DNA from: Longicatena caecimuris
Lineage (GTDB): Bacteria > Bacillota_I > Bacilli_A > Erysipelotrichales > Erysipelotrichaceae
DNA: 64,000 nucleotides
NCBI RefSeq assembly: GCF_004341945.1
Contig: NZ_SMBP01000011.1
Span: 1-64,000, forward strand
Direction: 5' to 3'
The notes under the pieces were generated by a model. That model saw only the letters and a list, made by a program, of their open reading frames with translations, ran no database searches and was not told the DNA's origin. Positions 43,927 to 61,041 of this stretch are shown in pieces; within the stretch, counting starts at the first letter, position 1, and each line of letters begins with the position of its first letter. Both the position numbers and the translations under genes were made by a program.

Positions 43927-44601
43927 TTATTCATAGGTGTAATAGTAATCATAGGATGATAAATTTTGTGTTTTTGTTAAAACAATTCCTAATATCTTTG
44001 ACCGGCTGCGTTCTAATTGCCGTATCGAAGATAGTGCTATGTCTTTTTTTGTATCTTTCATGGATATGACAAAAATAGTTCCATCACTGACATTACTTAC
44101 ATAAAAAGTATCACTGATCATACTGATAGGAGGACAGTCCAAAATGATGAAATCATATTGTTTGGATAAAGCCTGCAGCAGCTTCTTGAATTTGGATGAT
44201 CCTAACAATTCTTGAGGATTTGGCACTTTACTTCCAGATGTCAAAACGGAAATAGCATTCTCACAATCCGTTACTGTAACTTCTTGAATATAAGTGCTTA
44301 AATCCGGCTGTTTATCGATAAACACCAGCAAATCAGATAAGCCTACTTGATTACTGATTTGAAAATAACGATGCATTTTCGGTCTGCGTAAATCGCAATC
44401 GATGACCAATACCTTTTTATACTTTGCCGCATACACTTGCGCAAGATGAAAAGCCACTGTTGATTTTCCTTCATTCGCACAGGAAGAAGTAATATTAACA
44501 ACTTTGATCGGTTTTTCTACTGCGGAAAACTCGATGTTCGTTTTCAATTTACGAAATGCTTCCATGTTATCAAATTTATAGGTATTTTTATTTTTTGACA
44601 T
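43927..44601 (-). CDS. CpsD/CapB-type tyrosine kinase of polysaccharide assembly
   Basis: BY-kinase, 224 residues. Walker A 'SCANEGKST', Walker A' 'VLVIDCDLRRPKMHR', Walker B 'FIILDCPP', and a Tyr-rich C-terminal tail 'SSYDYYYTYE' that is the usual autophosphorylation cluster. It works with the membrane activator encoded just upstream (14-base overlap) to control polymer length and export. No partner phosphatase (CpsB/Wzh type) is in the window. Confidence 0.93.
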   Translation of the reverse strand: MSKNKNTYKFDNMEAFRKLKTNIEFSAVEKPIKVVNITSSCANEGKSTVAFHLAQVYAAKYKKVLVIDCDLRRPKMHRYFQISNQVGLSDLLVFIDKQPDLSTYIQEVTVTDCENAISVLTSGSKVPNPQELLGSSKFKKLLQALSKQYDFIILDCPPISMISDTFYVSNVSDGTIFVISMKDTKKDIALSSIRQLERSRSKILGIVLTKTQNLSSYDYYYTYE

Positions 44602-45325
44602 ATGCTTTGACCCTCCTTTTGATGCTTTTTCTTGGATGATTCTCTTGGTTTAATTCATCGACAAAAGGAATACTTCCCAACACCGGATAACCAAAATATT
44701 CTTCCGCCTGATCACTGGATTTAATGCGATTATCAAGCAAAAATACCAAGATGAAATAAATATAGGATAAAGCAAAGCCAAAAATACCGCCTGCAATACT
44801 ATTCAATTTAATGTTTGGCGAAATATAATGCGTTTGTAAGGTAGCTTTATCAATTACTGTGATGTTATCTATTTCACTGATTTTCATCATTTCTTGTGTA
44901 AAAACAGCAATGGTCTCTTTCACAATGTTTTGGGATAAATACGGGTCCTCACTATTTGCCCTTATGGTGATGATATTGGAATTATCTTCGACATTTGTTT
45001 GGATAGCTTTGCTACATGTACCATCCGCCAAATGCAGCTTTTTATCTACCTGTGACAAGACGGTTGTCCCCTGCAAGATTTTTTCATAATCTTTTACCAA
45101 ATTACGATTCGTAATGACGGTTTGATTATCAATAATTCCTTCAGAGGTTGTCTTTGGTTTTAAATATATATTGGAATCACTCGCATACTTCTTTGGCAAT
45201 ATACACAAAGAAACGACCATTAAAAACACCATACACAGCAAAGTACAAAAGAGAATGACTTTGTAATGCTTTTTAAATATCCCGATTAAATCATTTAAGC
45301 GAAGCTTTATTTCTTTTTCATCCAT
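44588..45325 (-). CDS. CpsC/CapA-type chain-length regulator (Wzz family)
   Basis: 245 residues, two membrane segments (about 22-44 and 180-203) enclosing an outward domain, with 'PNIKLNSIAGGIFGFALSYIYF' containing the Pro-rich approach to TM2 usual for Wzz proteins, and a basic C-terminal tail toward the kinase. It sits 3 bases after the polymerase gene and overlaps the kinase gene, forming a split Wzc-like unit. Confidence 0.92.
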   Translation of the reverse strand: MDEKEIKLRLNDLIGIFKKHYKVILFCTLLCMVFLMVVSLCILPKKYASDSNIYLKPKTTSEGIIDNQTVITNRNLVKDYEKILQGTTVLSQVDKKLHLADGTCSKAIQTNVEDNSNIITIRANSEDPYLSQNIVKETIAVFTQEMMKISEIDNITVIDKATLQTHYISPNIKLNSIAGGIFGFALSYIYFILVFLLDNRIKSSDQAEEYFGYPVLGSIPFVDELNQENHPRKSIKRRVKAYVKK

Positions 45326-45328
45326 TTA

Positions 45329-47197
45329 TTACACCTCTATATCTTTCTGATACGCGATTTGCGTTAAAACAACAAAACCAGTCAAATCTTCAACTTCATC
45401 CTTTGATTGAAATGTATTGTGCTGGCGCTTTCGTATGTAGAAAACAAGCAAGATGAGGAAAGAGGAACTTAGGGCACATAAGAGATAACGAACTATGCTC
45501 TCTTGGGTGGTCTCTTGATGCTTTGCTACTTCTTCATTAATTTTATACAATGTTTTATTATGCTTTTTAAAATCCTGCAAGATGCGTTTTTCAATACGCT
45601 TGTCTATTTTTAAGACATCCTGTTGCTTTTCAGCTTGAATCGATATATGTAAAACACTTCCGCTACTTTTTGCATGATATTTGACCGTTTTCACATGCAT
45701 CTTTTCCGCTATCTCCATATGAGCGTCATCACTATTGATCATATAGCTATAATCTGTTAATAACCCCTGATTGACAAGAATCGTATTTGCATTCACTGAA
45801 GCATTAGGACTGATTTCATTTTGCAAATAATATGCCACATCACCATAATAATCATCACTTATTTTATATTGACTTACAAAGATCATCACCGCTATAAGCA
45901 TAATGGTTTGCAAATAGTATTGACGTTGCTGCAGGATATCTTTTATGTCTGCTAAAAATTTTTTAGGAAGCTTAATACGATGGTGCCCTGTTTCTATTTC
46001 TAAAGGCAATAATACGAAGATAATCAACCCATTTGCCACGCTTAATATTGGGTTCATTAATGAGAAAAAGCCAATGGCAAGCATGCATATGATACAGGCT
46101 CCCTTCTGCATGCTACGATATCGTATCTGCTTTAAAAAGCAACGGATGCTCAATATATAAAAGGTCACACCGATACCGCCATAGTATGCAAAATCGTCTA
46201 ATATTTGACTATGTAAGCTAATGAGCCCTTGAACATTGCTGTGATGTCTTCCTATGCCAAAGAAGGGATGGGTAATGAAAGTATGCAAGCTGTCTTGATA
46301 CAGTGTAAGACGACCAGACATCGTGATTTCTGATTGAAATTGATTATCCAACATATGTAGGATTTCTAAACCACGTTTCTTGATCATCTCATCCGGTATT
46401 GAAGAAACTAAAGCATTGCAGCCATTCATGATCGCATCGGAATTTATCACAAAATAGAGAAGCAGTATGCCAAAGATAGCCAATATACATAGAAAAAGTT
46501 GTTCATTTCGCTGTCTCAAATAATATAACAGCATGCCTATCAAACTACATGTACATATGATGATTGATATCATAGAGGAAGACAGAATAATGGTAAAATA
46601 GGTACATAGAGCAAGAAGCAAATGTAAATAACGAATGCGTGTTTTGATCGTTAAGTAACGATGTAAGAATAACAGACATAAGACGATTTCCCCTAATAGC
46701 TCCGTGGTGGTAAAAATATTTAATTGTGTGACGTTACCTGCAAATTGACCACCTGTTACATATTTTGATAGATATGGATCTTGGATGAGTTGAATGAAAT
46801 TACTGAACATATTGATAATCAGAATACCATAGAGCACTCTTTTGCATGTATTTTTTTCTGCCATTTGCATATGATTGCGATAATAATCATAAAAAATTAT
46901 ACATAGCCAAAAGGTCAGACAAGTATACAAATTTCCGATATTATTATCTGAGATGTGTAAGATTTGTAATAACATTAAATAAAAGATCCAAAAAAGCAGA
47001 AGCAGATGCATGAGACGAAAAGTCAAAAAATAAGTTGCATCGTGCAAGAAGGCTGTCACAAACCATAACAGCAGCAGACCAATCATGAACATATACGATG
47101 TGTTATGCAATAGAATAGGCGTAAAACTGATGCATGCAATACTAAGAAAGAGCAGTTTGTTTATAAAATGCATCAATTTCTGGAAACTGTTATTCAT
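45329..47197 (-). CDS. O-antigen polymerase-like (Wzy) protein with Wzz-like C-terminal domain
   Basis: 622 residues, longer than usual Wzy proteins (about 400-450). The first 410 or so contain around eleven membrane segments and the large loop before 'HPFFGIGRHHSNVQGL', typical of the Wzy/O-antigen ligase superfamily. After a further membrane segment near 430 comes an outward domain of about 140 residues with 'ISPNASVNANTILVNQGLLTDY' and a coiled stretch, then a last membrane segment (about 587-607) and a short basic tail. TM-outside-TM with this layout resembles a Wzz chain-length domain. It probably polymerises the repeat units. Overlaps the preceding gene by 8 bases. Confidence 0.8.
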   Translation of the reverse strand: MNNSFQKLMHFINKLLFLSIACISFTPILLHNTSYMFMIGLLLLWFVTAFLHDATYFLTFRLMHLLLLFWIFYLMLLQILHISDNNIGNLYTCLTFWLCIIFYDYYRNHMQMAEKNTCKRVLYGILIINMFSNFIQLIQDPYLSKYVTGGQFAGNVTQLNIFTTTELLGEIVLCLLFLHRYLTIKTRIRYLHLLLALCTYFTIILSSSMISIIICTCSLIGMLLYYLRQRNEQLFLCILAIFGILLLYFVINSDAIMNGCNALVSSIPDEMIKKRGLEILHMLDNQFQSEITMSGRLTLYQDSLHTFITHPFFGIGRHHSNVQGLISLHSQILDDFAYYGGIGVTFYILSIRCFLKQIRYRSMQKGACIICMLAIGFFSLMNPILSVANGLIIFVLLPLEIETGHHRIKLPKKFLADIKDILQQRQYYLQTIMLIAVMIFVSQYKISDDYYGDVAYYLQNEISPNASVNANTILVNQGLLTDYSYMINSDDAHMEIAEKMHVKTVKYHAKSSGSVLHISIQAEKQQDVLKIDKRIEKRILQDFKKHNKTLYKINEEVAKHQETTQESIVRYLLCALSSSFLILLVFYIRKRQHNTFQSKDEVEDLTGFVVLTQIAYQKDIEV

Positions 47198-48167
47198 ACA
47201 CGTGCAAAGCCTTTGTTATTGCTTGCTTTGTATACATTCCCATAAGCAGCTTATCACGTAAACGTAAAAGATTATCTACATATAGCTGATAGGTTGATGA
47301 ATGCATCGTTAGGATTCGACCTTCTATTTCCGTTAAACTATCTACGACAAAACCAATGTTGTGCTGTATTACAAATGGTGCGATTGCCGCTTTTGACCAT
47401 GTTATAATTGGCAATAATGAAACGATATATAAGGATAATTTATGTGGATTATTATAACGCATATATTCTCCATTTAACCCACGACAGCCATTTAAATCAT
47501 CACCATCCCAAATGAGTCCAAAGCTTCCCTTTAAAGCAGCCGGTAATGTATTCGCCGGATATGCTCCTTCATATAAAATATGTCTGCTCTGATTTGCCTT
47601 TATATATCTTCCATATAAACGAAAAATAAGATTGTCCAAATGATGCAATTGCGATATAAAATGACTTTTTTCTAAATTGCCCGCATAGACAATTTCCTTT
47701 GTCAGCTTTCTTTGTTGCCAAGGTATGGGATTGCTTAGATAATCAAATACCATAAGTTCTATGATGTTCCCTTGAAAACCAGTTTGTCTGATTAGTTTTG
47801 CCATCACGCTATTATGAACAATCAGTGTATCCATTGACGTAAAGTTTTGCAGATCTTCTTGCAGCAAACGCCCACAACGTATGGATTGCAAATCATGGAT
47901 CAAATAAATAATTCCTTGTCCTTTGCTGCGTCTTAAGATTTTCTGATTCCATCTGCTGATGGGATATTGGACAATCAAACGCTTGTCCTTTTTCTTAATA
48001 AAAGTCAGTTTAATGCTTTCTAATAATCGTTTCAACCGACTTTTTTCATAATGATGCAAAAGGGCTTCGATGCCTTGTTCATGCAGAATCTGACATACAT
48101 CAATACGCGCTTTACTGCCCGCATCAACACCTTGCACATCATAATCCTCTAACTGATATATGTTCAT
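47190..48167 (-). CDS. glycosyltransferase, galactofuranosyltransferase-like
   Basis: 325 residues. 'YDVQGVDAGSKARIDV' at the N-terminus, 'LIHDLQSIRC' and 'IVYAGNLEKSHFI' followed by 'GSFGLIWDGDDLNGCRGLNGEYMRYNNPHKLSLY' features resemble the Gtf3 / beta-1,6-galactofuranosyltransferase group. The UDP-galactopyranose mutase in the same operon would supply the donor, which supports the call. Overlaps its neighbours by 4 and 8 bases. Confidence 0.75.
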   Translation of the reverse strand: MNIYQLEDYDVQGVDAGSKARIDVCQILHEQGIEALLHHYEKSRLKRLLESIKLTFIKKKDKRLIVQYPISRWNQKILRRSKGQGIIYLIHDLQSIRCGRLLQEDLQNFTSMDTLIVHNSVMAKLIRQTGFQGNIIELMVFDYLSNPIPWQQRKLTKEIVYAGNLEKSHFISQLHHLDNLIFRLYGRYIKANQSRHILYEGAYPANTLPAALKGSFGLIWDGDDLNGCRGLNGEYMRYNNPHKLSLYIVSLLPIITWSKAAIAPFVIQHNIGFVVDSLTEIEGRILTMHSSTYQLYVDNLLRLRDKLLMGMYTKQAITKALHVYE

Positions 48168-49246
48168 TTTATCATCTCCTTCAGCCTACGTTCATAAGAT
48201 ACAGCCGCTGTCTCAATTGACAATTCACGAAACACCATTTTATCGTTGTTATGTCTGCACATACGAGGCAAGTTCATAATTTTTTCAGCCCATTCTTCCT
48301 TGCTTTGAATGGATGCTCGCAGGCAAGTATGTGTGATATCGGTTTCCTGAGGAATCGTATCTGATAAAATAACTTGTAATCCATTGATTTGTGCTTCAAT
48401 TGCCGATATACAAAAACCCTCATAGAAGGAAGGCACCAATAGGATGTCAGACATATCGAGTAAGGCACAAACATCATTTCGTTGCCCAAGGAATGTAATT
48501 TGCTCTTGTAAACCTAATGACATAGTCAAAGATGTCAACGCTGCTTTTTGTTCCCCCTCACCGACAATGACCAAATGATATTGGTCATCTAACAACTTCA
48601 TTAGACGAATAGTGAAGGCGATGTTTTTCTCTTTGGATAAACGTGAAATTACAAGCAATACCATTTTGTGCTGTAACTGATAATGACGGCGATATTGGAT
48701 ACGTGTGGCTTCATCAAATTGAAAATCAGAAAGAGACATGGCATTGTACATAAGAAACCCATGTTCTTTCCAACGTTTTTTGCCATACAACAACTCTCCA
48801 CACGTTGGCCCTGTCGCATAATAATCATTTGCCATATGCACATTCAGAAATTTCATTAGGCGAATCATGAGATTTGGTCGTTGTGTTGTCAAAGCGTAGG
48901 TGGAGTGCGCATGGGTAATACGCAAAGGAACGTTATGGAAACGTGCAATCAGTAAAGGGAAACATGACAGATAGCCTTGATGAACATGAATGACATCATA
49001 CGCACCGTGGGCAATAATGTTATTCATGGCAGCCAGATTTTTTCTTAACGAAGTATGTTTGGAGGGAATGCGATATATACGAATACCTAATTGTAAAAAT
49101 CGTTGATAAAGCATACCTTGCTCATTCTCATCATGCGTCATAATTTCAAAAGTGATATTCCTGTCCTTCATATAGTGAAGATAGCGATAAAGCATGGTTT
49201 CAATGCCACCGCTTTGCAATACAGATACGACATGTAATACCCTCAT
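48164..49246 (-). CDS. GT4-family glycosyltransferase (EpsF-like)
   Basis: 360 residues, GT-B fold. 'SVLQSGGIETMLYRYLHYM' at the N-terminus, 'DVIHVHQGYLSCFPL', 'THAHSTYAL', donor-binding 'ISRLSKEKNIAFTIRLMKLL', and 'VPSFYEGFCISAIEAQ' with the E-x7-E type element. Retaining transferase; acceptor and sugar unknown. It overlaps the radical-SAM activase upstream by 4 bases. Confidence 0.9.
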   Translation of the reverse strand: MRVLHVVSVLQSGGIETMLYRYLHYMKDRNITFEIMTHDENEQGMLYQRFLQLGIRIYRIPSKHTSLRKNLAAMNNIIAHGAYDVIHVHQGYLSCFPLLIARFHNVPLRITHAHSTYALTTQRPNLMIRLMKFLNVHMANDYYATGPTCGELLYGKKRWKEHGFLMYNAMSLSDFQFDEATRIQYRRHYQLQHKMVLLVISRLSKEKNIAFTIRLMKLLDDQYHLVIVGEGEQKAALTSLTMSLGLQEQITFLGQRNDVCALLDMSDILLVPSFYEGFCISAIEAQINGLQVILSDTIPQETDITHTCLRASIQSKEEWAEKIMNLPRMCRHNNDKMVFRELSIETAAVSYERRLKEMIK

Positions 49247-50052
49247 ATACGCATCACCTCAATCACTTGATCCTTTTGCGCAATTGCTTGTGCAAATGTT
49301 TGTAACTCTTCCTCAGATACACCTTCATATGCAGGTTGCGTCATTCCCAATACTTGATATTTCTTTGTCGCTAACTTATGTATTGAAAATAGTTCAATCT
49401 TTTCAAATTGGTAATTGGGTAAAAACCGTTTGATAGCTTCCAAATTGGCATTTGTGAACGTGTAAGGTTTTACTAACGGAATCCGTAGGATGATATGTTT
49501 TTGCTGAGCAGTTAAGTAATTTAGATTTGTTATATACTCATTTAAATTCCCTTTTAGCTTACTGATGCAGGCAGGTTCTAAACTCTTTAAATCCACATAC
49601 CATGTATCCACATAGGGAAGCAGCAATTGCAACTGTTTTAGCGAAGCATATAATGAGGTTTCCACACAAATCGTTATTTGTTCTTTTTTTAAGGCTTGCA
49701 TGACACCTACCAAAACATCTGCTTGTAACAATGGCTCACCACCACTAAAGGTGACACCTCCATCAGCTTGATAATACTTTCGATCTTGCATGCAGGCCGC
49801 AAGACATTCTTGCACATCGATCCTTTTTCCAATTGAACGCATAGCTAGACAAACAGCATTTGACTTACGACTGGGGCAAATTGGATAGAAACAGTTATCC
49901 ATATCGATGGCCATTTGTTCTTGCAGCGATTGTGTTTCCGGATTACAGCACCAAGGACATCGCAATTGACATCCCTTTAAAAATATCGTCGTACGTATAC
50001 CAGGACCATCATAAAGGCAAAAGCGTTGTATGTCAGTGATACACAGTTTCAT
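49243..50052 (-). CDS. radical SAM activase of the glycyl radical enzyme
   Basis: About 269 residues. 'YDGPGIRTTIFLKGC' followed by the radical-SAM cluster C-x3-C-x2-C (C31, C35, C38 counted from the GTG at 50061) and 'GGVTFSGGEPLLQ' near 101-113 identify a PFL-activase family member. It would abstract H from the partner's glycine. The auxiliary-cluster insert between the motifs has five Cys (C57, C62, C71, C86, C90) instead of the eight usual in two-ferredoxin-cluster activases. Start set at ATG 50052, ten bases after AAGGAGG; it overlaps the GRE gene, so the two are coupled. Confidence 0.92.
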   Translation of the reverse strand: MKLCITDIQRFCLYDGPGIRTTIFLKGCQLRCPWCCNPETQSLQEQMAIDMDNCFYPICPSRKSNAVCLAMRSIGKRIDVQECLAACMQDRKYYQADGGVTFSGGEPLLQADVLVGVMQALKKEQITICVETSLYASLKQLQLLLPYVDTWYVDLKSLEPACISKLKGNLNEYITNLNYLTAQQKHIILRIPLVKPYTFTNANLEAIKRFLPNYQFEKIELFSIHKLATKKYQVLGMTQPAYEGVSEEELQTFAQAIAQKDQVIEVMRI

Positions 50053-52033
50053 ATTCTTCACACCTCCTTATGACAATATCCTGATAGCTTTTTGGTAAAT
50101 CAATGAAATACGCACTGAATCCCCATACGCGAACAATCAAATCTGCATGCTTTTTAGGATGTTGCTGTGCATCCAGTAAAACATCTTTTTGTAATACATT
50201 CATTTGCAATTGAAAGATTCCCTGATCCAAGGCACAAAACAGCAGTGTCCGACATTTATCTTCGAAATTATTCAATAATTGAGGATTCATCATGATATCT
50301 ACCACATTACCATTGCACCTGCCATGATCATAATGTAGTTTTGCCGCAAAATTTAATAATGACGTATAAGCTCTGCCTGCGATTCCGGAAATATGTGTCA
50401 TGAAAGGCTCTCCATATGCGCGCCCATCTGCCGTTGCAGGAAAGGTAGCAGCACTACTTACATAGCCTGGAGAACTAAGACCAAAAACAAAATGACCGCC
50501 CCATTGATTTTTTTCTTCGGCAAATACTTGTGCTGCATAGGCCGTTATTTGATTGATGCGTGAAATCATCGTTTTCTGTTCATCATCACCAAAAACACCT
50601 TTTTGTTGCAGAAAATAGCGAAATTGTTCTCCATATTCTGCATCTTCTAAATACATTTGCAATTGAGCAAGCGTGAAAAGTTTTTTCTTATACACGAATT
50701 CTTCAATATTGAAAAGAGCATTTATCGCATTGCCCATAGCCACCGTGGTAATACCGGTGTTATGGTAACAGGCACCACCTTCTGCAACATCCTTTACAGA
50801 CTGCCAACAACCATCAATACATAAAGATAAAAATGCATCTTTTTCATATACCAATGCTTTTGAAGCCTGACAAATTCTTAAAATTTCTTCCTTTAAGTAA
50901 CTAAAATATCGTTGATAGACTTCTTCTATCGTCAAAAGATCATCGTTCATAAGTTTTACGATAGGAACAAGGAAATTCAGAATCGATGTATTATTTTGCG
51001 AACTATCTTTTCCGATAAGCAAAGGTTCCCAACAAGCGGATGTTCCATAATGCAAAGCATCAACTTGTGCAATACCTGCTTGTTGCAAACAAGTTAGAAT
51101 AACATCGTCATTACTTAGCAAAGGCGATCCATTCCCCTTTTTTAGAACCCTAAAAATTTGTTCCTTTATGACATTAGGGCAGGTTTGGGTATATCGATAC
51201 AACAGCTTTGGCTCTGGTTTATCATATTTTTCAAAAACTTGTAAGATAAGCTTCGTAAAGGCCGTATTCGCTTGGAGATCTTTTCCACCAAGAATCAAAA
51301 TTTGCCCCGTATCCCCTAATAACTCACTGCTTTTAAACCAATAATCTTGATGTAAAATATGACAAAACTCCAAAAGCATAGACTTTGCTTTTTCTTCTGT
51401 GATATACCCAGTCTGTAAATCCTGCTCATATAATTGAAACAACAATGCATCAAAGCGTCCCAATCCAACCAATTCATGACCGCTTTGCCAAAGCATCTGA
51501 TTCAAAAACAATATTCTTTGCATCCCATCTTGTAGATGTCTAGCTTCACCCTGCACCATTTCGGCAAACAGCTGCTGTAAATCAAAACGTTGCATAGCAT
51601 GAAGCTTTGTGCTGATTGTTTCAATTTGTGTCATGATAGCTAATAACACGCAGTTTTGCTGTTTTTTAAATGATGTATTGGGTAAGTTCTCGCCTTCTGC
51701 TAACAAGGCTTGAAAACTATTTTGAATGAATTTTTCATATGCAATCGTGATATTACTAAACACATGATGTCGCTGGCTTAAGGATAGATAGGGATTTATA
51801 TAATAATAAAAATATTGATAACACCCTTGTTTGTGAAAGGATGCTTTTTGGCATAAATTTTGGAAGTCTTTTGCTGCATCATCACTTCTCATTACGATTC
51901 TTGTTTTTAAGAAAGCCTTGCATAAAAACAGCAAATCGTTTTCTCTTTCAAATAAACGCTGATGTTTCTGATACAACTTTTTGATATGCTTTAAATATTG
52001 GATAAATCGAAAATTACGCCAATTCATATCCAT
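50033..52033 (-). CDS. divergent glycyl radical enzyme of the EPS operon
   Basis: 666 residues, shorter than pyruvate formate-lyase or diol dehydratases (about 760-850), mostly by a short N-terminus. The C-terminal glycyl motif is intact: R635-V-W-G638-F-S-A-Y-F. The thiyl Cys334 lies in 'GTSACWEPL', a C-x-E-P arrangement as in the dehydratase/eliminase group (glycerol and propanediol dehydratase, choline lyase) and unlike the double Cys of formate-lyases. 'GGACYHNTG' and 'TADGRAYGEPF' are further family marks. So an elimination on a polyol-like or sugar-like substrate is the best guess; the substrate is unknown. It starts at the wzx stop (TGATG), with AAGGAGG 4 bases before; Met3 is an alternative. 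Confidence 0.9.
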   Translation of the reverse strand: MDMNWRNFRFIQYLKHIKKLYQKHQRLFERENDLLFLCKAFLKTRIVMRSDDAAKDFQNLCQKASFHKQGCYQYFYYYINPYLSLSQRHHVFSNITIAYEKFIQNSFQALLAEGENLPNTSFKKQQNCVLLAIMTQIETISTKLHAMQRFDLQQLFAEMVQGEARHLQDGMQRILFLNQMLWQSGHELVGLGRFDALLFQLYEQDLQTGYITEEKAKSMLLEFCHILHQDYWFKSSELLGDTGQILILGGKDLQANTAFTKLILQVFEKYDKPEPKLLYRYTQTCPNVIKEQIFRVLKKGNGSPLLSNDDVILTCLQQAGIAQVDALHYGTSACWEPLLIGKDSSQNNTSILNFLVPIVKLMNDDLLTIEEVYQRYFSYLKEEILRICQASKALVYEKDAFLSLCIDGCWQSVKDVAEGGACYHNTGITTVAMGNAINALFNIEEFVYKKKLFTLAQLQMYLEDAEYGEQFRYFLQQKGVFGDDEQKTMISRINQITAYAAQVFAEEKNQWGGHFVFGLSSPGYVSSAATFPATADGRAYGEPFMTHISGIAGRAYTSLLNFAAKLHYDHGRCNGNVVDIMMNPQLLNNFEDKCRTLLFCALDQGIFQLQMNVLQKDVLLDAQQHPKKHADLIVRVWGFSAYFIDLPKSYQDIVIRRCEEYETVYH

Positions 52034-53481
52034 CAGACCTCCTTTTTACACCTACCCAGCTTTTGCGACAAGAAGTGTAACATATTGCCAAATAAGGTGT
52101 CCTTGCTTATATATAAAGCTATTCCATAAGAAACACTCGCCATAACCCCCACCAATACCATATAAAGGATGATGGGAATATCCAAAACGTTGATCCAAAT
52201 GATGCAAAGAAACATAATGCCGGCACATAAACCATAATGAACGCATTCTCTGAAAACTTTGCGAAATGCTATCTTCTTGCGAACGATATAAAATTGCACT
52301 GCGGTAATCAAAAACTCTGCACAGACACTTGAAAGAATTGCCCCTTTGGCAGCAAATTGCGGTATCAGTAAGGCATTCATGATAAAATTTAAAACAGCTC
52401 CTAACACTACCGTGCATGTAAATGCATTTTGTCTTCTTGTAGATATCAAGTATTGCATGCCGGTAACATTATTTAAGCCAATCAGCAACAGCAAAGGTGT
52501 ACTCCATTTTAATAAGCTGATTGCCGCATCATAAGATGGTCCTAAAAACCATGGGATAAAACGATTGGCAATGCACAGCAATAGAAAAATCGCAGGCATT
52601 GCTAATAACAATGCAAATTTATAGGATATATAAAGATAATGAAGAATCTTGTCGTCCTGATCTTCTGCCTGAATACTTGCAATGCGTGGCATCATGACCG
52701 TGCCAAGGGATGTGATAAAGATGAGAATCAGACGAATGATTTTCTGTGTCTGATCATAATATCCGGTTTGCGCATAGGTAGATAAATACCCTAACATGGT
52801 CCTATCGAATAAGGTGTAGATCTGCATGGCAATCTGAGGTAAAAATACCATGAAAATAGGAAAAAGATGACGTTTTAAATGAAGCTTTGTAATATTTGAT
52901 AACTGCATCGTTTTATGTAAGGCTAACCATAAGGATAGATTAGCGATGAGTCCAACCATCCCCAAACATACGATATACAGCCACATATCAGCTTTCCTTC
53001 TGATAAATGTAAAGATACAAATTGCTCCGATGAGCTTTACGGCTATATTACGAAATGTGATATAGCGAAAATCTTCCATTCCTTGATAATACCAAGAAAT
53101 ATCAAACACATTCGCGATAATTTCAATCATCTGCAGTAAAAACAAAAACTGTAATTCCTGTACCTGTCGCAAATACAATACGTATACTATGATGCTTACC
53201 ATCAGCATTAGACAGCGAATAATCAGTATTTCTAAAAAGACTTGCGAACGCGCTTCTTGTTTATTTTGATAATAAGCGATTTCTCTTTGTCCATACAACC
53301 CGGTTCCTAATGTTCCAAATAAAATAAAATATGAGCTAATCGATTGTACATAGCTTAAACTTCCTATTCCTTCAGCACCAAAAACTCTTGCCAGATAAGG
53401 GGTCGTCAACAAAGGAAGGAAAATGATCAGAATTTGATAAAGGGTGTTATAAATATAATTGCTAATTAATCTTTTATGCAT
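52033..53481 (-). CDS. Wzx-type polysaccharide flippase
   Basis: About 482 residues, some twelve to fourteen membrane segments, MOP/MATE exporter superfamily. 'NYIYNTLYQILIIFLPLLTTPYLARVFGAEGIG' region opens the protein as in RfbX/Wzx flippases. It would move lipid-linked repeat units to the outer face. Start at 53481 (Met-His-Lys-Arg-Leu-Ile) overlaps the end of glf by 8 bases; the frame extends further up but without a ribosome site. Overlaps the GRE start by one base. Confidence 0.92.
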   Translation of the reverse strand: MHKRLISNYIYNTLYQILIIFLPLLTTPYLARVFGAEGIGSLSYVQSISSYFILFGTLGTGLYGQREIAYYQNKQEARSQVFLEILIIRCLMLMVSIIVYVLYLRQVQELQFLFLLQMIEIIANVFDISWYYQGMEDFRYITFRNIAVKLIGAICIFTFIRRKADMWLYIVCLGMVGLIANLSLWLALHKTMQLSNITKLHLKRHLFPIFMVFLPQIAMQIYTLFDRTMLGYLSTYAQTGYYDQTQKIIRLILIFITSLGTVMMPRIASIQAEDQDDKILHYLYISYKFALLLAMPAIFLLLCIANRFIPWFLGPSYDAAISLLKWSTPLLLLIGLNNVTGMQYLISTRRQNAFTCTVVLGAVLNFIMNALLIPQFAAKGAILSSVCAEFLITAVQFYIVRKKIAFRKVFRECVHYGLCAGIMFLCIIWINVLDIPIILYMVLVGVMASVSYGIALYISKDTLFGNMLHFLSQKLGRCKKEV

Positions 53482-54574
53482 CGCTTTTCTCACACAGCTG
53501 AGCAAAACATTTGCATGCCTCAGCTACGATCTGATCTATGTTATAGTATTTAAAATTTGCTAATCGTCCTAAAAAAATAACATCCTTTTCCTGTTCTGCC
53601 AATCTCTGGTATTGTGCTAATATCGCATTTATTTTAGGTTGTAAGATCGGATAACATTGGATTCCCTCTTGCACGGGAAACTCTTTCAGTATGACCGTGT
53701 GCTTATGTTCTTGGCCCGTCAGCTTTTTAAATTCGGTGATACGTGTGTAATCATAATCATTGGGATAATTGATTACCGCTGCTTGTTGATACGATGGGGT
53801 ATCATGTGTTTCAAACGCAAAACGTAAACAACGATAAGGAAGGTGCCCATAACAATAATCATAATAGGCATCCAATGGTCCTGTATAGATTAGTTTTTCA
53901 TAGGATATTTCATCTTTAATCTGTTGATAATCTGTATTCAGAAGAATATGCATTTTCGCATTTAACATTCGCTTCATCATGGCTGTAAAGCCGGCTTTGG
54001 GAATTCCCTGGTAACGATCAGAAAAATAACGTTGATCATTATTCAGACGAATCGGTATTCTTGAAAAGATGGAAGCATCCAATTCTTTGCATGGCATACC
54101 CCATTGCTTTTCCGTATAGTGTTTATAAAACATCTCATATAAATCAGCTCCCACACTGGCTATTGCTATATCCTCAAAAGTTTTGCAAGATTGAGGATCC
54201 TGTTGTACCTTTTGAAAATATTGTTGTGCTTTTTCTTTCGTAAACGGCTCATGAAATATTTGGCTAAGTGTACATAGATTTACAGGAAATGGAACATATT
54301 CGCCATTTACATAAGAAAGCACTTTATGTTGATATTCATGCCAAGTGGTAAATGTACTTAAGTAAGAAAATACAGATGCATCATTTGTATGAAAGATATG
54401 CGGTCCATAGGCTTGTATGAGAAGCCCATTCTCATCATAGCAATCATATAGATTGCCACCTATATGTGATCTTTTTTCAATAATCAAAACCTCTTTATGC
54501 AAAACATTTGTAATACGTTCTGCCATACACAAACCGGCAATCCCTGCACCTACGATTACATAATCAAATTTCAT
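53474..54574 (-). CDS. glf: UDP-galactopyranose mutase
   Basis: FAD enzyme interconverting UDP-Galp and UDP-Galf. About 366 residues. FAD loop 'VGAGIAGLCMAERI', 'IIEKRSHIGGNLYD', 'YGPHIFHTND' and 'RIPIRLNNDQRYFSDRYQGIPKAG' elements are typical. The start at 54574 has AAAGGA upstream and overlaps the stop of the GT2 gene (ATGA). Indicates galactofuranose in the polymer. Confidence 0.96.
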   Translation of the reverse strand: MKFDYVIVGAGIAGLCMAERITNVLHKEVLIIEKRSHIGGNLYDCYDENGLLIQAYGPHIFHTNDASVFSYLSTFTTWHEYQHKVLSYVNGEYVPFPVNLCTLSQIFHEPFTKEKAQQYFQKVQQDPQSCKTFEDIAIASVGADLYEMFYKHYTEKQWGMPCKELDASIFSRIPIRLNNDQRYFSDRYQGIPKAGFTAMMKRMLNAKMHILLNTDYQQIKDEISYEKLIYTGPLDAYYDYCYGHLPYRCLRFAFETHDTPSYQQAAVINYPNDYDYTRITEFKKLTGQEHKHTVILKEFPVQEGIQCYPILQPKINAILAQYQRLAEQEKDVIFLGRLANFKYYNIDQIVAEACKCFAQLCEKSDA

Positions 54575-55641
54575 CTCTTTTTCCTTTCTGTGGCATATAA
54601 AATCCATTTTATTCTATTTCTTATGCATTGTTCAGCGAACATGAGTGTGACATGTCCCTGATAAAATCCTTTGCGATATTTTCGGGGAATACTGAATAGT
54701 TCCTCAAGATGAAATAAAGAAAGTTCCTCTTGTATATGATAGTCTTTAAAAACCTGCTTTAGATAGGCTCTACGTTTCCAAAAGGAGGCCTTTGCATCGA
54801 CTTTACTTTGATTCACGATTTCCTCATAGTAATTCATGAGCCTGCGATAAGCAAAACTCTTTTTTAATTGCTTTGCCAAAGCAGGCTGATGCAACGTGAT
54901 CTTCTCTAGCAATAGCTCATGACTATGCACCATATCTGTAAAATAATGAGGCATATAGCTTTGCGTCGTCGTCCGTCTGGTTTTTTGATAATGATAAAAC
55001 GGCTGATTCATAAAAACGACAGTTCGGCATTGTAAAATGTAATCCACCAAAAATTGTAAATCTTCTGTAAACCGCACAGCGGTATCAAACGTGAGCTGTT
55101 TTTTCTGAATGAGCTCCTTACGAAATAAACACCGACACACACTTCCTATGATAATCTTCTGTCGTGTATTCGTTATTGAATATTCCGATACCATAGCAGG
55201 AACAATTTCCTGCATAACCTTTTCATGTGTGTATTCCTGCTGTTCTTGTGAAAACGGAAATAACATCGGTTGTTTAATATTACGAAAAGATAACTCATAG
55301 GAACACATGACTAAATCTACGTCCTTGTGAAATTGTTTCGACATTTCTTCATACATGTGTTTATCAATCGTATCATCTGAATCAATGAAAGAAATAAGCT
55401 TACCTTTTGCATGTTGCAGGCCGATGTTACGAGCAGCTGAAGGGCCTTGGTGTGGACAAGACAAATACTGTATGCATGGGTATAATGTCGCTAAGTGTTG
55501 ACATAGTTGTGCCGTATTATCCGTAGAACCATCATCACAAAGTAAAATTTCCGCAACACCTTGTTGTTGTAAGATTGATTCTACACAAGCTTTTATCGTG
55601 CTTTCAGAATTGTACATTGGTACAATGACTGATATCTCCAT
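54571..55641 (-). CDS. GT2-family glycosyltransferase
   Basis: 356 residues. GT-A N-terminus 'ISVIVPMYNSESTIKACVES', 'DDGSTDNT', and the DxD-type 'ISFIDSDDTID' near 85-95. The C-terminal third is helical without membrane segments. Inverting transferase; the sugar is unknown. Overlaps glf by 4 bases. Confidence 0.92.
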   Translation of the reverse strand: MEISVIVPMYNSESTIKACVESILQQQGVAEILLCDDGSTDNTAQLCQHLATLYPCIQYLSCPHQGPSAARNIGLQHAKGKLISFIDSDDTIDKHMYEEMSKQFHKDVDLVMCSYELSFRNIKQPMLFPFSQEQQEYTHEKVMQEIVPAMVSEYSITNTRQKIIIGSVCRCLFRKELIQKKQLTFDTAVRFTEDLQFLVDYILQCRTVVFMNQPFYHYQKTRRTTTQSYMPHYFTDMVHSHELLLEKITLHQPALAKQLKKSFAYRRLMNYYEEIVNQSKVDAKASFWKRRAYLKQVFKDYHIQEELSLFHLEELFSIPRKYRKGFYQGHVTLMFAEQCIRNRIKWILYATERKKR

Positions 55642-55661
55642 TTTTTCATCCTCCTTCCCTA

Positions 55662-56690
55662 TTAACGCAAAGTTTCACGCAAGTATTTATTTTTATATAA
55701 AACCTTACATACCACTACAAGCACAACAAATACGAAATTACTGAAAAGAAAATACCATATCGTGCTGAAAGGCCATTGCAATATGAACTGAAATAATGGA
55801 GATGTCATCGTTAATAATGGCAATTGCAGGATATAGATTCCTATAAAATAAGTTGCGATATGCAATGACCTATGCAATTGTAAAGCAGCTTGCTGCCGAT
55901 ACGTAAAGCAAAGGCAAAGACTGCATATGACCAGTATCGAACCATAAAACATTTCAGGCATACAAGTGTCTATTCGCTCACTTGCTATCAATAGCAGAAA
56001 AAGCGTAATAAACACACTTAGCAAGACCTTACTTTTCGTTACGATCATGCACCTTTCCATCCTTTGACAAACATCCGATAAGCAGCCACCAAGCATAAAA
56101 TAAAATAGCCATATCCACATTCGCAATATTTGTGGTATTCGCATTATGCAAGCATATCCTTGTATTTCACATCCCAAATTAATACTATCAAATAAGATAC
56201 ACAGTAGCCCCAACCACATAACTACTTGAAGATAACGTTTTTTGTGCGTGGTATATAAGCGATATAGTAATGGGGTGATACTGTATAAAAACATCAAGAG
56301 ATATAAAAACCAAAATTGATAAAAATAACTCCCCTGCCATACATCTTTTATCATCTGTAGCAATGTCATTTGTAAGATAGTAAGAATCCCTTGTTGCCAA
56401 TAGACAACTATAGCATATAAGAAATTCCAAAACGCAATCAAAGCGATAAAATGCATGATTTTCTTAGATATTTCGCGATAGCTATACGCTCTTCGCAACA
56501 TCAACTTTCCCGATATGATGATAAAAATCGGTATTGCATAGACAATCGCATTGAAAAGGGTATGTAAGAAAACAGAGTTCATCACAAAATCCAGATGTAG
56601 GATACAAACATGTGCAAAAAAGACCAGATAACAACCGATTCCTCTTATGAAATCAAAGTACTGATTTCGTTGCTCATATGCTTGCTGCAT
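55662..56690 (-). CDS. acyltransferase 3 family membrane protein (EPS modification)
   Basis: 342 residues with about ten membrane segments. 'YFDFIRGIGCYLVFFAHVCI' carries the conserved Arg and catalytic-type His near residue 25. By operon position it probably O-acetylates the repeat unit. Overlaps the GT14-type gene by 17 bases. A second, unrelated-locus member of the family lies at 26954-27985. Confidence 0.88.
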   Translation of the reverse strand: MQQAYEQRNQYFDFIRGIGCYLVFFAHVCILHLDFVMNSVFLHTLFNAIVYAIPIFIIISGKLMLRRAYSYREISKKIMHFIALIAFWNFLYAIVVYWQQGILTILQMTLLQMIKDVWQGSYFYQFWFLYLLMFLYSITPLLYRLYTTHKKRYLQVVMWLGLLCILFDSINLGCEIQGYACIMRIPQILRMWIWLFYFMLGGCLSDVCQRMERCMIVTKSKVLLSVFITLFLLLIASERIDTCMPEMFYGSILVICSLCLCFTYRQQAALQLHRSLHIATYFIGIYILQLPLLTMTSPLFQFILQWPFSTIWYFLFSNFVFVVLVVVCKVLYKNKYLRETLR

Positions 56691-57591
56691 AAAACTCCTC
56701 TTCTAATCGATCTATCAAGGTATCACTGATTCCACTAACTGCTTTGCGAAAGAATAATGCTTCACTTGCTTTAAGATATGCGTAATCGTCATTACTATAT
56801 GGCGAGACTTCACCATATGCATTGATTTTCATCACATGCAAAGCTGTCCACCGATGGATATCATCAACATAAGCCGCTTCAACACCTTTTTTAAACGTAT
56901 GATCACGAAAAGGTGAATTAAAGAGGATCGTTTGAAACAACATTTCATCCGGTGCATATGAAGTTTGAAAATATGTTAATAACTTTGGCTGGGTATCAAT
57001 CAAATCCATCATATAGCTTGCAAACGCATGCGTTAACGCGTGCCATTGTCCTCCACCATACACCGTATAAGTTTGTCCTTGTAGAATTAAGTCCGTTTTT
57101 TTATAAAACAGACGATTCTTTGTAATACCATAACGTAACAGGTGATGAAGAAATCTATCCGCTTTTTTGTTATGGAAAAAAGGCTTCATAAAATGTCGTT
57201 GCTGAATCTTAAAATAATCTTGGTTCTTATCCGTGATTGCAAATCCTCTGATAAACTCTACATCGGCATGCTTTGCAAAAAAAGTCTGCAAATCTTTTTG
57301 TGCATACAATGGATAATCTTGTCCGGATAATAAAACATAGCGATCATATTTTTTCTGTAATGCGGCACGATACAGTAATAAGGTAGCTTCTACTAAGCTG
57401 ATATCTCCCCAATAGCACCTTGTGCGTTGTGTAAGGATATATAAGGATGAATAGTCATTTATTTCATCGATGGAGAAATCAGCCTTTTGATCCACATGCA
57501 AATACACATCCTGCATTTCACATAACTGTTTTAACAATCGATTCAATTGTTTGACATCTGTATGTGCCAATATTAAATATGCAATTCTCAT
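56674..57591 (-). CDS. GT14-type (core-2/I-branching-like) glycosyltransferase
   Basis: 305 residues. 'MRIAYLILAHTDVKQLNRLL', 'VYLHVDQKADF', 'YVLLSGQDYPLY' and 'SYAPDEMLFQTILFNSPF' are the conserved blocks of the Branch domain family of beta-1,6-N-acetylglucosaminyl- or xylosyltransferases. Sugar unknown here. Overlaps both neighbours. Confidence 0.88.
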   Translation of the reverse strand: MRIAYLILAHTDVKQLNRLLKQLCEMQDVYLHVDQKADFSIDEINDYSSLYILTQRTRCYWGDISLVEATLLLYRAALQKKYDRYVLLSGQDYPLYAQKDLQTFFAKHADVEFIRGFAITDKNQDYFKIQQRHFMKPFFHNKKADRFLHHLLRYGITKNRLFYKKTDLILQGQTYTVYGGGQWHALTHAFASYMMDLIDTQPKLLTYFQTSYAPDEMLFQTILFNSPFRDHTFKKGVEAAYVDDIHRWTALHVMKINAYGEVSPYSNDDYAYLKASEALFFRKAVSGISDTLIDRLEEEFYAASI

Positions 57592-58775
57592 ATGGTATCC
57601 TTCCCATCTTCATGTAACCGTCCTTCGTATAAGGTAATATACGCAAGAAACGCTCTATTCTTATCCAAATGAGCCTTTTCTTCTGGAAGCAATTGTATAC
57701 GCTGCAATGGCTTTTCCTTTAAAAGCTTCAAGAATTCGTTTACGTTATGTACAACATAGCTTCCTTTACACAAGGTTTCTTTACATCCGCCCACATCATA
57801 ACTAACAATTGGGCAGCCACATGCCTGCGCTTCAAGATTAACACTTGGGTAAGTATCCTCATATGTTGGATTGAAAAAGACATAGCTTTGCTGATACCAG
57901 GAAACAAGCTCTTTCACATCGTGTGTTTCTTTATATCCTTTGATATTGGATGGCAATTGATGCAGCTGTTGTTTCGTTAACCCAATCATAACGATTTGAT
58001 ATGCATCTGGAATGTGCTTTGCCAAAGCGATAAAATCATCAAACCCTTTTGCAGCAGTCCATTTCCCAGCAACCCCAAGAATCGTTTTCGTTTTTTTATC
58101 CATCGCGGTCTTCCTTGGAGAAAATACTTGTAAGTCAATTCCATTATGAATGGTATAGATTGGATATGCTTGTAGAAAGGAAGCTTGCACTTGCTGCAAA
58201 AGCCAATCGGAAGGAGTAATCAAGATGAGATTTTCTATGCCGGTAAAACATGCTTTCTTTTTCTGAAAGCTGCGTGTCATATCGCTCTTTATTGTCTTAG
58301 GATAGCCATCATGATGCTGACATTGACGACATTGTGATTGCCATTGCATACAGCCATGACCATTGTAGTGTGCACAATTCCCTGTAAAGCTCCAACAATC
58401 ATGTAATGTCCAAATTTTTTTTATTTCCGGATGACGTTTTAAATATGCACAAAATAGTGGTAAATTCAGATAATAGCCATGCAGATTATGCAAATGAAGA
58501 ATATCCGGCTGTAGCCGTTCGAGCTTTTTAATAAAGCGTTTGGTCGCAAAATAGCTGCCAAAACCATTTTTTCCTAAAAAGCGTGCCTTTCCCACATGCC
58601 ATAAAACATCAAAGATCGTTCCTATTTTTATTGTTTTATAAGTTGCCTCTGCCTTGCCTCTGCCATAAGCAATGTAACAGCTATACCCTTTTTGCTGTGC
58701 CATTGTATACAATGTCTTGCATATCCTTCCTGTACTGCCATAGCATACGGTATTCACGAAAACTATTTTTTCCAT
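57588..58775 (-). CDS. GT4-family glycosyltransferase
   Basis: 395 residues. 'VNTVCYGSTGRICKTLYTMAQ' and 'ILHLHNLHGYYLNLP', then a Cys/His-rich 'SFTGNCAHYNGHGCMQWQSQCRQCQHH' segment common in this subfamily, and donor-binding 'LGVAGKWTAAKGFDDFIALA' with 'NPTYEDTYPSVNLEAQACGCP'. Retaining GT-B enzyme. Overlaps the epimerase gene upstream by 13 bases. Confidence 0.92.
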   Translation of the reverse strand: MEKIVFVNTVCYGSTGRICKTLYTMAQQKGYSCYIAYGRGKAEATYKTIKIGTIFDVLWHVGKARFLGKNGFGSYFATKRFIKKLERLQPDILHLHNLHGYYLNLPLFCAYLKRHPEIKKIWTLHDCWSFTGNCAHYNGHGCMQWQSQCRQCQHHDGYPKTIKSDMTRSFQKKKACFTGIENLILITPSDWLLQQVQASFLQAYPIYTIHNGIDLQVFSPRKTAMDKKTKTILGVAGKWTAAKGFDDFIALAKHIPDAYQIVMIGLTKQQLHQLPSNIKGYKETHDVKELVSWYQQSYVFFNPTYEDTYPSVNLEAQACGCPIVSYDVGGCKETLCKGSYVVHNVNEFLKLLKEKPLQRIQLLPEEKAHLDKNRAFLAYITLYEGRLHEDGKDTI

Positions 58776-59899
58776 ACGGTTTTATTTATGATGGAAGTAT
58801 AGGATTGAAGGATTCTTACGACTTTTCCACTGATTGGCTCAATATAATCATAAACAGGCAAGCTTTTTTCATGATGCTTTTCTAATTGTATTGCTAAGGC
58901 AACCGCCTGTAATACCTCTTCCTTTTGGATACCGGCAAGAATGAAATTTCCTTTTTCCATCGCCTCAGGGCGCTCGGTACTAGTACGTATGCAAACAGCC
59001 GGAAATCCTAAATCGATGGATGAGAAAAAGGCAGCTTCTTCAGGAAGTGTTCCAGAATCACTTACAACAGCCAATGCCTGTATCTGTAATTGATTGTAAT
59101 CATGAAAACCTAATGGCTTATGAATACGGACACGTTCATCAAAAGAAAAATTCCTTTCCCTAATAAACTTTTCTGCTCTTGGATGACAAGAATATATAAT
59201 AGGCACATTGTACATATCTGCTAAGGCATTGATTGCCGTAAACACATCATAAAAAGCTTCTTCATGATCGATATTCTCTTCCCGATGCGCGGATAACAAA
59301 ATATATTGTTGCTTTACTAAACCAAGTTCTTTAAGAATCTTTGATTCACGGATTTGCGTTAGATTCTTCGTAAGAACTTCAGCCATTGGAGATCCTGTTA
59401 CAAACACTCTGTCTTTTGCTACTCCTTCCGCCAAGAGATATCTTCTGGCATGTTCGCTATAACACAAATTTACATCTGCAATATGATCTACGATACGACG
59501 ATTCGTCTCCTCTGGCAATCGTTCATCAAAACAGCGGTTTCCAGCTTCTAGATGAAAAATCGGGATATGCAAGCGTTTTGCCGCGATCACACTTAAGCAA
59601 CTATTGGTATCTCCCAGCACCAGCACTGCATCGGGACGAACATTTGCCATTAGATGATAGCTTTTTGCAATAATGCTGCCGATTGTCTCACCAACTTCAT
59701 CTTTTGCGGCATTTAAGTAAAAATCCGGTGCCCGCAGCTGCAAATCCTTGAAAAAGATCTGATTCAGTTGATAGTCATAATTCTGCCCGGTGTGTACAAG
59801 GATTTGTTCAAAGTATAAATCACATGTTTTGATGATTTCTGATAATCGTATGATTTCCGGTCTGGTACCAACGATTGTCATCAATTTTAATTTTTTCAT
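58763..59899 (-). CDS. capG: UDP-GlcNAc 2-epimerase-family enzyme (CapG/FnlC type)
   Basis: About 378 residues of the WecB fold: 'MTIVGTRPEIIRLS', 'HTGQNYDYQLNQIFF', 'VLGDTNSCL', 'HLEAGNRCFDERLPEETNR', and 'SDSGTLPEEAAFF'. Placed with CapE- and CapF-type genes, it most likely makes UDP-L-FucNAc from the talose-configured intermediate rather than UDP-ManNAc. Start at 59899; AAGGAGG is 13 bases off, and the GTG at 59911 is almost inside it. Confidence 0.9.
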   Translation of the reverse strand: MKKLKLMTIVGTRPEIIRLSEIIKTCDLYFEQILVHTGQNYDYQLNQIFFKDLQLRAPDFYLNAAKDEVGETIGSIIAKSYHLMANVRPDAVLVLGDTNSCLSVIAAKRLHIPIFHLEAGNRCFDERLPEETNRRIVDHIADVNLCYSEHARRYLLAEGVAKDRVFVTGSPMAEVLTKNLTQIRESKILKELGLVKQQYILLSAHREENIDHEEAFYDVFTAINALADMYNVPIIYSCHPRAEKFIRERNFSFDERVRIHKPLGFHDYNQLQIQALAVVSDSGTLPEEAAFFSSIDLGFPAVCIRTSTERPEAMEKGNFILAGIQKEEVLQAVALAIQLEKHHEKSLPVYDYIEPISGKVVRILQSYTSIINKTVWKK

Positions 59900-59907
59900 A
59901 AGGGTGT

Positions 59908-61041
59908 TCACACCTCCTTATAATAGGTATCCGGATAAGTTTCATCAAATACTTCATTTGCCCAAATAATTACTACCATATCCTGCGTTCCCGTATTTTC
60001 AATACAATGTAAATACCCCGGTGGTATATCCACTACTTCCATTTTGTTCGCCGAAAGATGATAGGTAAGAAGCTTATGATCATCGTCATAAAGATTGCGC
60101 AATTTAACATTTCCTTCGCCGGCGACAACAACATATTTTTCATTTTTGCTCATATGCCAATGATTTCCTTTTACAATACCCGGATGCAAAACATTTACAC
60201 TCACTTGTCCATAAGTATCCATATGAAACATCTCGGTAAAGCTGCCTCGCGCATCCTGATGCATTGTTAAAGAATACGATAAGTTTTCTTGCGGCAGATA
60301 AGACAAATAGGTGGCATATAGCTTTTTAACAAATGCCGTTTGATTAGGCAATGTAAGATTCTGCTGCTCATTTTTAAAGGAATATAAGATATTTCTTAAT
60401 TCCGATAAACGACACCTCGTTGTTGGTTCTACCTTATAGAAATCAGATTCATCTGCAACCGTTGCCTTTCCTTGCAGACAATTCAGTATTTCCGTGATGA
60501 CATCATCAATATAACAAAGCGTGATTTCCTTTTGTTCATCGTGAATCTGAATATCCTGATTTCTAGCAAGGTGGTAACACCAAGTTGCTACGACACTGTT
60601 GTAATCAGGGCGGCACCATTTCCCATATACATTCGGCAGACGATATAGATAAATTTTATTACCGTTTTTTTGCCATAGCGATCTTAAGCAATTTTCAGCT
60701 GCACGTTTGCTTCTTCCATAATCATTATCTAGCACTGCCTGAATCGATGAGGTCATTAAAATGGGACATGTATTCCTATGCTGAATTAATTCATCACAAA
60801 TAAACTGTGTGAATCCTTTATTCCCTTCTTCATATTCTTGTGCTTTCTGTGGTCGATTGACACCGGCTAAATGAATGATGAAATCACAATCCGTCAAGTA
60901 TTCTTTTAAGTCTTCTATCGCATCACGGCGATCATAGGTATACAACTTCAGTGGTTGTAAAAACGACAGTTCTTTACTTTGTAATACATGTATTAAATTT
61001 CGGGCAATAAAACCATGAGCTCCAGTTATTAAAATGTTCAT
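59908..61041 (-). CDS. capF: CapF/FnlB-type nucleotide-sugar reductase
   Basis: About 377 residues. N-terminal SDR domain 'ILITGAHGFIARNLI' with 'IHLAGVNRPQ' and 'DYGRSKRAAEN', and a C-terminal cupin domain from about 245 with 'GSFTEMFHMDTYGQVSVN', 'KGNHWHMSKNEKYVV' and 'PPGYLHCIENTG'. This two-domain plan is specific to CapF, which reduces the 4-keto intermediate of UDP-L-FucNAc synthesis. Start at 61041 overlaps the CapE stop by 4 bases. Confidence 0.93.
   Translation of the reverse strand: MNILITGAHGFIARNLIHVLQSKELSFLQPLKLYTYDRRDAIEDLKEYLTDCDFIIHLAGVNRPQKAQEYEEGNKGFTQFICDELIQHRNTCPILMTSSIQAVLDNDYGRSKRAAENCLRSLWQKNGNKIYLYRLPNVYGKWCRPDYNSVVATWCYHLARNQDIQIHDEQKEITLCYIDDVITEILNCLQGKATVADESDFYKVEPTTRCRLSELRNILYSFKNEQQNLTLPNQTAFVKKLYATYLSYLPQENLSYSLTMHQDARGSFTEMFHMDTYGQVSVNVLHPGIVKGNHWHMSKNEKYVVVAGEGNVKLRNLYDDDHKLLTYHLSANKMEVVDIPPGYLHCIENTGTQDMVVIIWANEVFDETYPDTYYKEV

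Follow-up and report, generated by a model that had tools for sequence, protein, structure and literature searches.

What does a glycyl radical enzyme (GRE) do inside a locus for surface-polysaccharide assembly? The question is raised by a 64,000-nucleotide stretch of the Longicatena caecimuris genome (assembly GCF_004341945.1, contig NZ_SMBP01000011.1, positions 1 to 64,000; hereafter the window), in which a 666-residue GRE (50033..52033) and its radical S-adenosylmethionine (SAM) activase (49243..50052), both on the minus strand, lie between a Wzx-type flippase and a GT4 glycosyltransferase. Pfam, fold, motifs and tree all identify the first protein as a GRE: a Gly-radical domain (PF01228, 1.2e-12) and a thiyl Cys in a PFL-like barrel (PF02901, 1.2e-42), both matches above cut-off, place it in the superfamily. 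We find that it belongs to a real and conserved GRE subfamily of surface-glycan loci, apparently undescribed, whose role in polysaccharide synthesis appears well supported by comparative genomics. Probably, it is a dedicated biosynthetic GRE of such loci, taking a C-O group off a sugar or a sugar-linked precursor, possibly at the membrane.

A GRE clade of surface-polysaccharide loci

Among 273 genomes from the window's bacterial family, the best matches are only about 26-31% identical to the window GRE; the nearest of these adjoin NagA-like, phosphotransferase system (PTS) and other genes, and they were ruled out as orthologues by genome context and tree. A class-wide search gave one relative at 38% identity (E 5e-133), near an activase, a polymerase-like protein, a GT2 glycosyltransferase and a UDP-galactopyranose mutase (Glf). 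Starting from the window GRE alone, a profile scan gave no relatives; starting from the two-member alignment of the window GRE and this 38% relative, it gave 36 related loci spread over Bacilli, Clostridia, Lachnospiraceae and Methanobrevibacter, with identities of mostly 33-39%. With a 31-member profile, full-length family members score at least 750 bits and the next GREs at most 426 bits. Of 299 genomes sampled from the bacterial family to which genome G762 belongs, 7 hold a member, as do all four genomes searched from one Methanobrevibacter-group genus, one of the copies being broken. The initial annotation proposed that polymer structure would depend on anaerobiosis; in any case, the carriers appear to be anaerobes. 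Spread on mobile elements, phage or plasmid, was considered and set aside: no family member was found among viral contigs or in the plasmid search, where the best match reached 31% identity over 61% of the length. That match is a Vibrio plasmid GRE lying beside its own activase (NZ_CP045340.1:510158-511429).

All placed family members, the window GRE among them, fall into one clade (39 rows, support 100), whose sister is a clade of short GREs. PflD, YbiW and PFL branch elsewhere in the tree, and the window GRE does not branch with E. coli PflD or YbiW. The initial annotation had reasoned that clustering with a known GRE of central metabolism would speak against its proposal of a GRE acting on a surface polymer; the family instead stands as a separate, fully supported clade. 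Methanobrevibacter sequences group together inside it, so that a single transfer from bacteria to Methanobrevibacter fits. One Methanobrevibacter copy (L080:77-2068) has neither the active-site Cys (S-S-T-L-E-P) nor the Gly-radical motif and is a degenerate copy or a pseudoenzyme, and another from the Methanobrevibacter group (L191, G1069:C122) is split by stops or a frameshift beside an intact activase, related genomes holding intact copies. Three polysaccharide loci (L075, L068 and L078) carry two family GREs each, every one with its own gene neighbourhood.

The genomic context separates the family from its sister clade. By one BLAST yardstick, at least one polysaccharide-assembly gene (for a glycosyltransferase, flippase, Glf or the like) lies nearby in 39 of 44 family loci vs none of 17 sister-clade loci (Fisher P 5e-11, a guide only, as the loci are related and the yardstick was partly drawn from family loci); counted per gene, this corresponds to 148/624 family-locus genes vs 0/262 sister-locus genes. 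Five family loci had no match: L057, L080 and L082 are nearly flankless or hold a degenerate GRE, and in L066 and L184 other nearby genes resemble sugar-nucleotide enzymes on inspection. Glycos_transf_2 (21), Polysacc_synt (20) and GLF (10) top the Pfam tally of 131 immediate family neighbours; among 91 sister-clade neighbours are families for HTH, amidohydrolase, FBP aldolase and transporter proteins. Nearly all family GREs have an activase close by. In one subclade (L059, L061, L074, L077, L084), the flippase gene and sometimes that of Glf stand between GRE and activase, which argues that the pair is not a compact hitch-hiking cassette. In L186 (11011-13251), a single 746-residue open reading frame (ORF) joins a GT2 domain (residues 6-222) to a radical-SAM activase (508-661). 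It had been anticipated that homologues lying mostly outside polysaccharide loci would count against the proposal: the clade itself lies inside them, and what lies outside are the closest GREs of the same bacterial family (~28-30%), which fall in the separate sister clade.

Nine loci, vs 0/20 GRE-less controls, encode near the GRE a 320-residue protein to which model and Foldseek assign a GT-A fold; about fifteen such comparisons were made, and the count is uncorrected for their number. This protein (L050:12586-13554 and relatives) represents an unnamed family of GT-A-fold glycosyltransferases that no Pfam model matches above cut-off and that often adjoins the GRE. In L071 and L184, the GRE lies beside IspD-like, nucleotidyltransferase-kinase and HAD-like genes that resemble a pathway for a nucleotide-activated sugar or polyol.

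Active site and proposed reaction

The thiyl site (C334-W-E336-P) and the radical motif (R635-V-W-G638-F) are intact in the window GRE, and both motifs, with C334, E336 and G638, are invariant in 39/39 aligned clade members. The activase carries Fer4_12 and Radical_SAM domains, passes TIGR02494 ('glycyl-radical enzyme activating protein'; 230.8 vs 174.35 bits) and holds its CxxxCxxC at C31/C35/C38 (numbered from the GTG ORF). It has no auxiliary CxxCxxxC Fe-S motif; such motifs occur in 0/33 family activases vs 5/11 in the sister clade. The motifs and the activase of the initial annotation are thus borne out. Its further claim that C-x-E-P is the dehydratase/eliminase form holds in part: CxE is the signature of GRE eliminases (PMC7077986), but the following Pro is not, being constant in the family and replaced by Leu or Thr in most aligned eliminase-type GREs and mostly by Phe in the sister clade. 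None of the curated NCBIfam cut-offs for GREs (CutC, HypD, HpsG, HpfG, HPAD, IAD, PFL) is passed by the window GRE, which scores 127 against 1100 bits for HypD, 119 against 1050 for CutC and 191 against 678 for the broad PFL2-3 model. It shares superfamily fold and motifs with CutC, HypD and the other curated GREs but falls far short of their cut-offs.

The AlphaFold 2 model (predicted local distance difference test score, pLDDT, 86; predicted template-modelling score, pTM, 0.89) has only GREs among its top 50 Foldseek matches, the nearest solved folds being PflD, propanediol dehydratase (PD), CutC and glycerol dehydratase (GD). PflD and YbiW cleave 1,5-anhydrohexitol phosphates, namely 1,5-anhydromannitol-6-P and 1,5-anhydroglucitol-6-P (PMC12441222), so sugar-like GRE substrates have a precedent. 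They resemble the family in being the best fold match (8yjo, 8id0), in their CxE motif and in their carbohydrate-derived substrate, and PflD has the same small Gly as the window GRE at window position 243, a site where Tyr stands in YbiW and in many other eliminase-type GREs. They differ in identity (21-23% in fold alignments), in length (about 765-810 residues), in a catalytic His in place of Asn94, in branching as a separate clade and in being catabolic, PTS genes adjoining pflD in E. coli. GD and PD also share fold, C-x-E and an activase with the family (GD even CxEP), but keep the His before the D-Y motif and act on small free polyols. In the pairwise alignment of GD with the window GRE, His281 is kept as His186, while Tyr339 becomes Gly243 and Asp447 becomes Asn348.

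Comparison with the sister clade (L037-L043, L049, L192-L200) shows which features belong to the family alone. Sister sequences are likewise short (about 650-700 residues) and hold Asn94, Asn348, CWE and RVWG or RIWG, but they have Tyr in place of Lys234, a different G-N-V-V-D region and no polysaccharide genes in 17 loci. Five residues that never vary in the family (Lys234, Asn442, His547, Asn576 and Asp579) differ in the sister clade. The sister clade itself comprises uncharacterised short GREs beside sugar-catabolism and other genes; sharing the Asn94/Asn348 pair, it probably catalyses another unknown GRE reaction.

How could such an enzyme act? With SAM and a 4Fe-4S cluster, the activase would generate a radical at Gly638, from which it would pass to Cys334. 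In a sugar, or in a precursor linked to one, the Cys334 thiyl would then abstract a hydrogen from a C-OH carbon, Glu336 presumably serving as base, and elimination of the neighbouring C-O bond would leave a deoxy-keto or aldehydo unit. This unit would be handed to glycosyltransferases, or would already sit in the lipid-linked repeat unit before the Wzx flip, and so could alter the polymer. Eliminase-type chemistry with a changed acid-base set is likely. More tentatively, gut Bacillota and Methanobrevibacter would share a so far undescribed biosynthetic GRE family that acts at the membrane. Its substrate would be a sugar linked to a nucleotide or to undecaprenyl (in archaea, to the equivalent lipid), and radical elimination, with Asn in place of the eliminase His, would install a deoxy-keto sugar; we regard this full version as possible but somewhat doubtful. 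A clade-specific basic, mostly helical N-terminus may hold the GRE at the inner membrane face: the median net charge of the first 50 residues is +9 in the family vs +2 in both other groups.

Several observations weigh against a sugar eliminase at the membrane. The His essential in HypD (H160; PMC7077986), which we take as the His preceding the eliminase D-Y motif, is present at the equivalent position in 22/25 aligned eliminase-type GREs, but is Asn94 in 39/39 family and 16/16 sister sequences, so the family GRE is not simply a diol dehydratase; across the whole clade, Asn348 occupies the position of GD Asp447 in the pairwise alignment. Because Asn94 and Asn348 replace these residues, the acid-base chemistry must differ. 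The basic N-terminal helix predicted in the window GRE (residues 3-25) has a pLDDT of only 60-74, and the N-terminal hydrophobic moment does not exceed that of the sister clade (0.48 vs 0.53). A raised amphipathic moment was thereby ruled out, charge alone differing, and membrane binding is a suggestion drawn from that charge and a helix of modest confidence. No sugar-specific partner enzyme is constant across family loci, many of which come from gut metagenome assemblies; the branch of the window GRE is long (1.69); and the sequence does not tell which sugar or substituent is made.

The window locus

The genes around the GRE, all on the minus strand, comprise the flippase, polymerase, chain-length protein with kinase and glycosyltransferases expected of a Wzx/Wzy-dependent locus. 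The Wzx-type flippase (52033..53505; Pfam and sequence comparison) overlaps the GRE gene by 1 base, and the activase gene overlaps that of the GT4 glycosyltransferase (48164..49246; Pfam) by 4 bases. With an activase start at the ATG at 50052, which is residue 4 of a GTG ORF reaching 50061 and the start of many relatives, GRE and activase overlap by 20 bases; with the GTG start, they overlap by 29. The gene order Wzx-GRE-activase-GT4 and the three overlaps (1, 20 and 4 bases) therefore match the first description, the 20 given the ATG, and the claim that the pair is part of the operon is supported in function as well as position, the clade being found in surface-polysaccharide loci across phyla. 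Terminator-like sites within 43.3-60 kb are not above chance (6 found, 9.9 expected), and no microcompartment shell domain was found among 20 window proteins scanned.

On one side of this core lie a homologue of the galactofuranosyltransferase WbbI (47190..48167; 30% identity over 336 columns to E. coli K-12 WbbI, E 5e-42), for which the Pfam scan gave no match, a Wzy-like polymerase (Wzy_C, 45329..47197; Pfam) and a Wzz-like chain-length protein with a tyrosine kinase (43927..45325; Pfam and NCBIfam). On the other side, the flippase gene is followed by Glf (53474..54607; TIGR00031, 375 bits against a cut-off of 303.75, and Pfam), then by a GT2, an acyltransferase, a Branch-type glycosyltransferase and a GT4 (54571..58775; Pfam), a UDP-HexNAc 2-epimerase with two sugar-nucleotide enzymes, putatively of a UDP-FucNAc-type pathway (58763..62087), and a GT4 with an epimerase (62074..63998; Pfam). 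Beyond 63998, the contig continues the locus with glycosyl-phosphate transferase-like and PHP phosphatase-like genes, by sequence inspection only. The O16 antigen locus of E. coli K-12 (glf, wbbI, rfbX) likewise brings together Glf, a WbbI-like transferase and Wzx, but has no GRE or activase. The L. caecimuris genome encodes a second Wzx-like flippase (G000:C12:77240-78676), 41% identical to that of the window. The Wzx subfamily was ruled out as a GRE-specific partner, being present in 35/146 related genomes.

Alternative explanations and meaning

Could the sugar ring stay unchanged, the GRE instead supplying a small substituent that is not a sugar or that derives from an alditol? Glycerol or ribitol phosphate might, for instance, be the source, and enzymes of the LicD or acyltransferase type would carry out the later transfer. 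Two of the nearest folds, PD and GD, do act on small diols, and LicD and an IspD-like cytidylyltransferase occur in 7/35 and 6/35 family loci vs 1/20 and 0/20 controls. These differences are not significant (P 0.23 and 0.08), though, and such genes are absent from most family loci, the window included as far as scanned; the best fold match, PflD, takes a sugar-derived phosphate and has the same small Gly at position 243. We therefore consider a substituent rather unlikely. Galactofuranose (Galf) is the other candidate suggested by the locus, as its exocyclic C5-C6 diol resembles propanediol, Glf and the WbbI-like Galf transferase flank the window pair, and Glf occurs in 15/35 family loci. Favoured at first, Galf was weakened by control loci of at least 12 kb: Glf is present in 10/15 GRE-less loci of the same Wzx subfamily, taken from the window's bacterial family, vs 14/27 GRE loci (P 0.52), and in many family loci no Glf lies within reach. 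Association does not favor this substrate, since GRE-less loci hold Glf equally often, and we judge it improbable.

That a catabolic or fermentative GRE rides by chance in polysaccharide islands would agree with the sister clade, which adjoins sugar-catabolism genes (NagA-like, aldolase, PTS), but it sits poorly with the same context in bacteria and archaea, the flippase between GRE and activase, the glycosyltransferase-activase fusion and the clade-specific residues, and is very improbable. A non-catalytic, GRE-like protein with a regulatory or structural role is harder still to credit: L080 has lost its Cys and radical domain and the G1069 copy is broken by stops or frameshifts, whereas Cys334, Glu336 and Gly638 are invariant in 39 members and an activase lies near nearly all.

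In the literature searched, GREs serve primary metabolism and small-molecule breakdown. A role in polysaccharide synthesis was not found there, which agrees, as far as open-licence papers go, with the initial statement that no described GRE with this role was known to its author. The active site (C334, E336, N94, N348, H186 and K234) offers a direct target for substrate discovery. If the GRE is indeed a biosynthetic enzyme of surface glycans, these polymers would hold sugar residues unexpected from present gene lists, with the GRE as a marker gene to find them, and radical chemistry known mainly from nutrient breakdown would also build the surface glycans of gut bacteria and methanogens.

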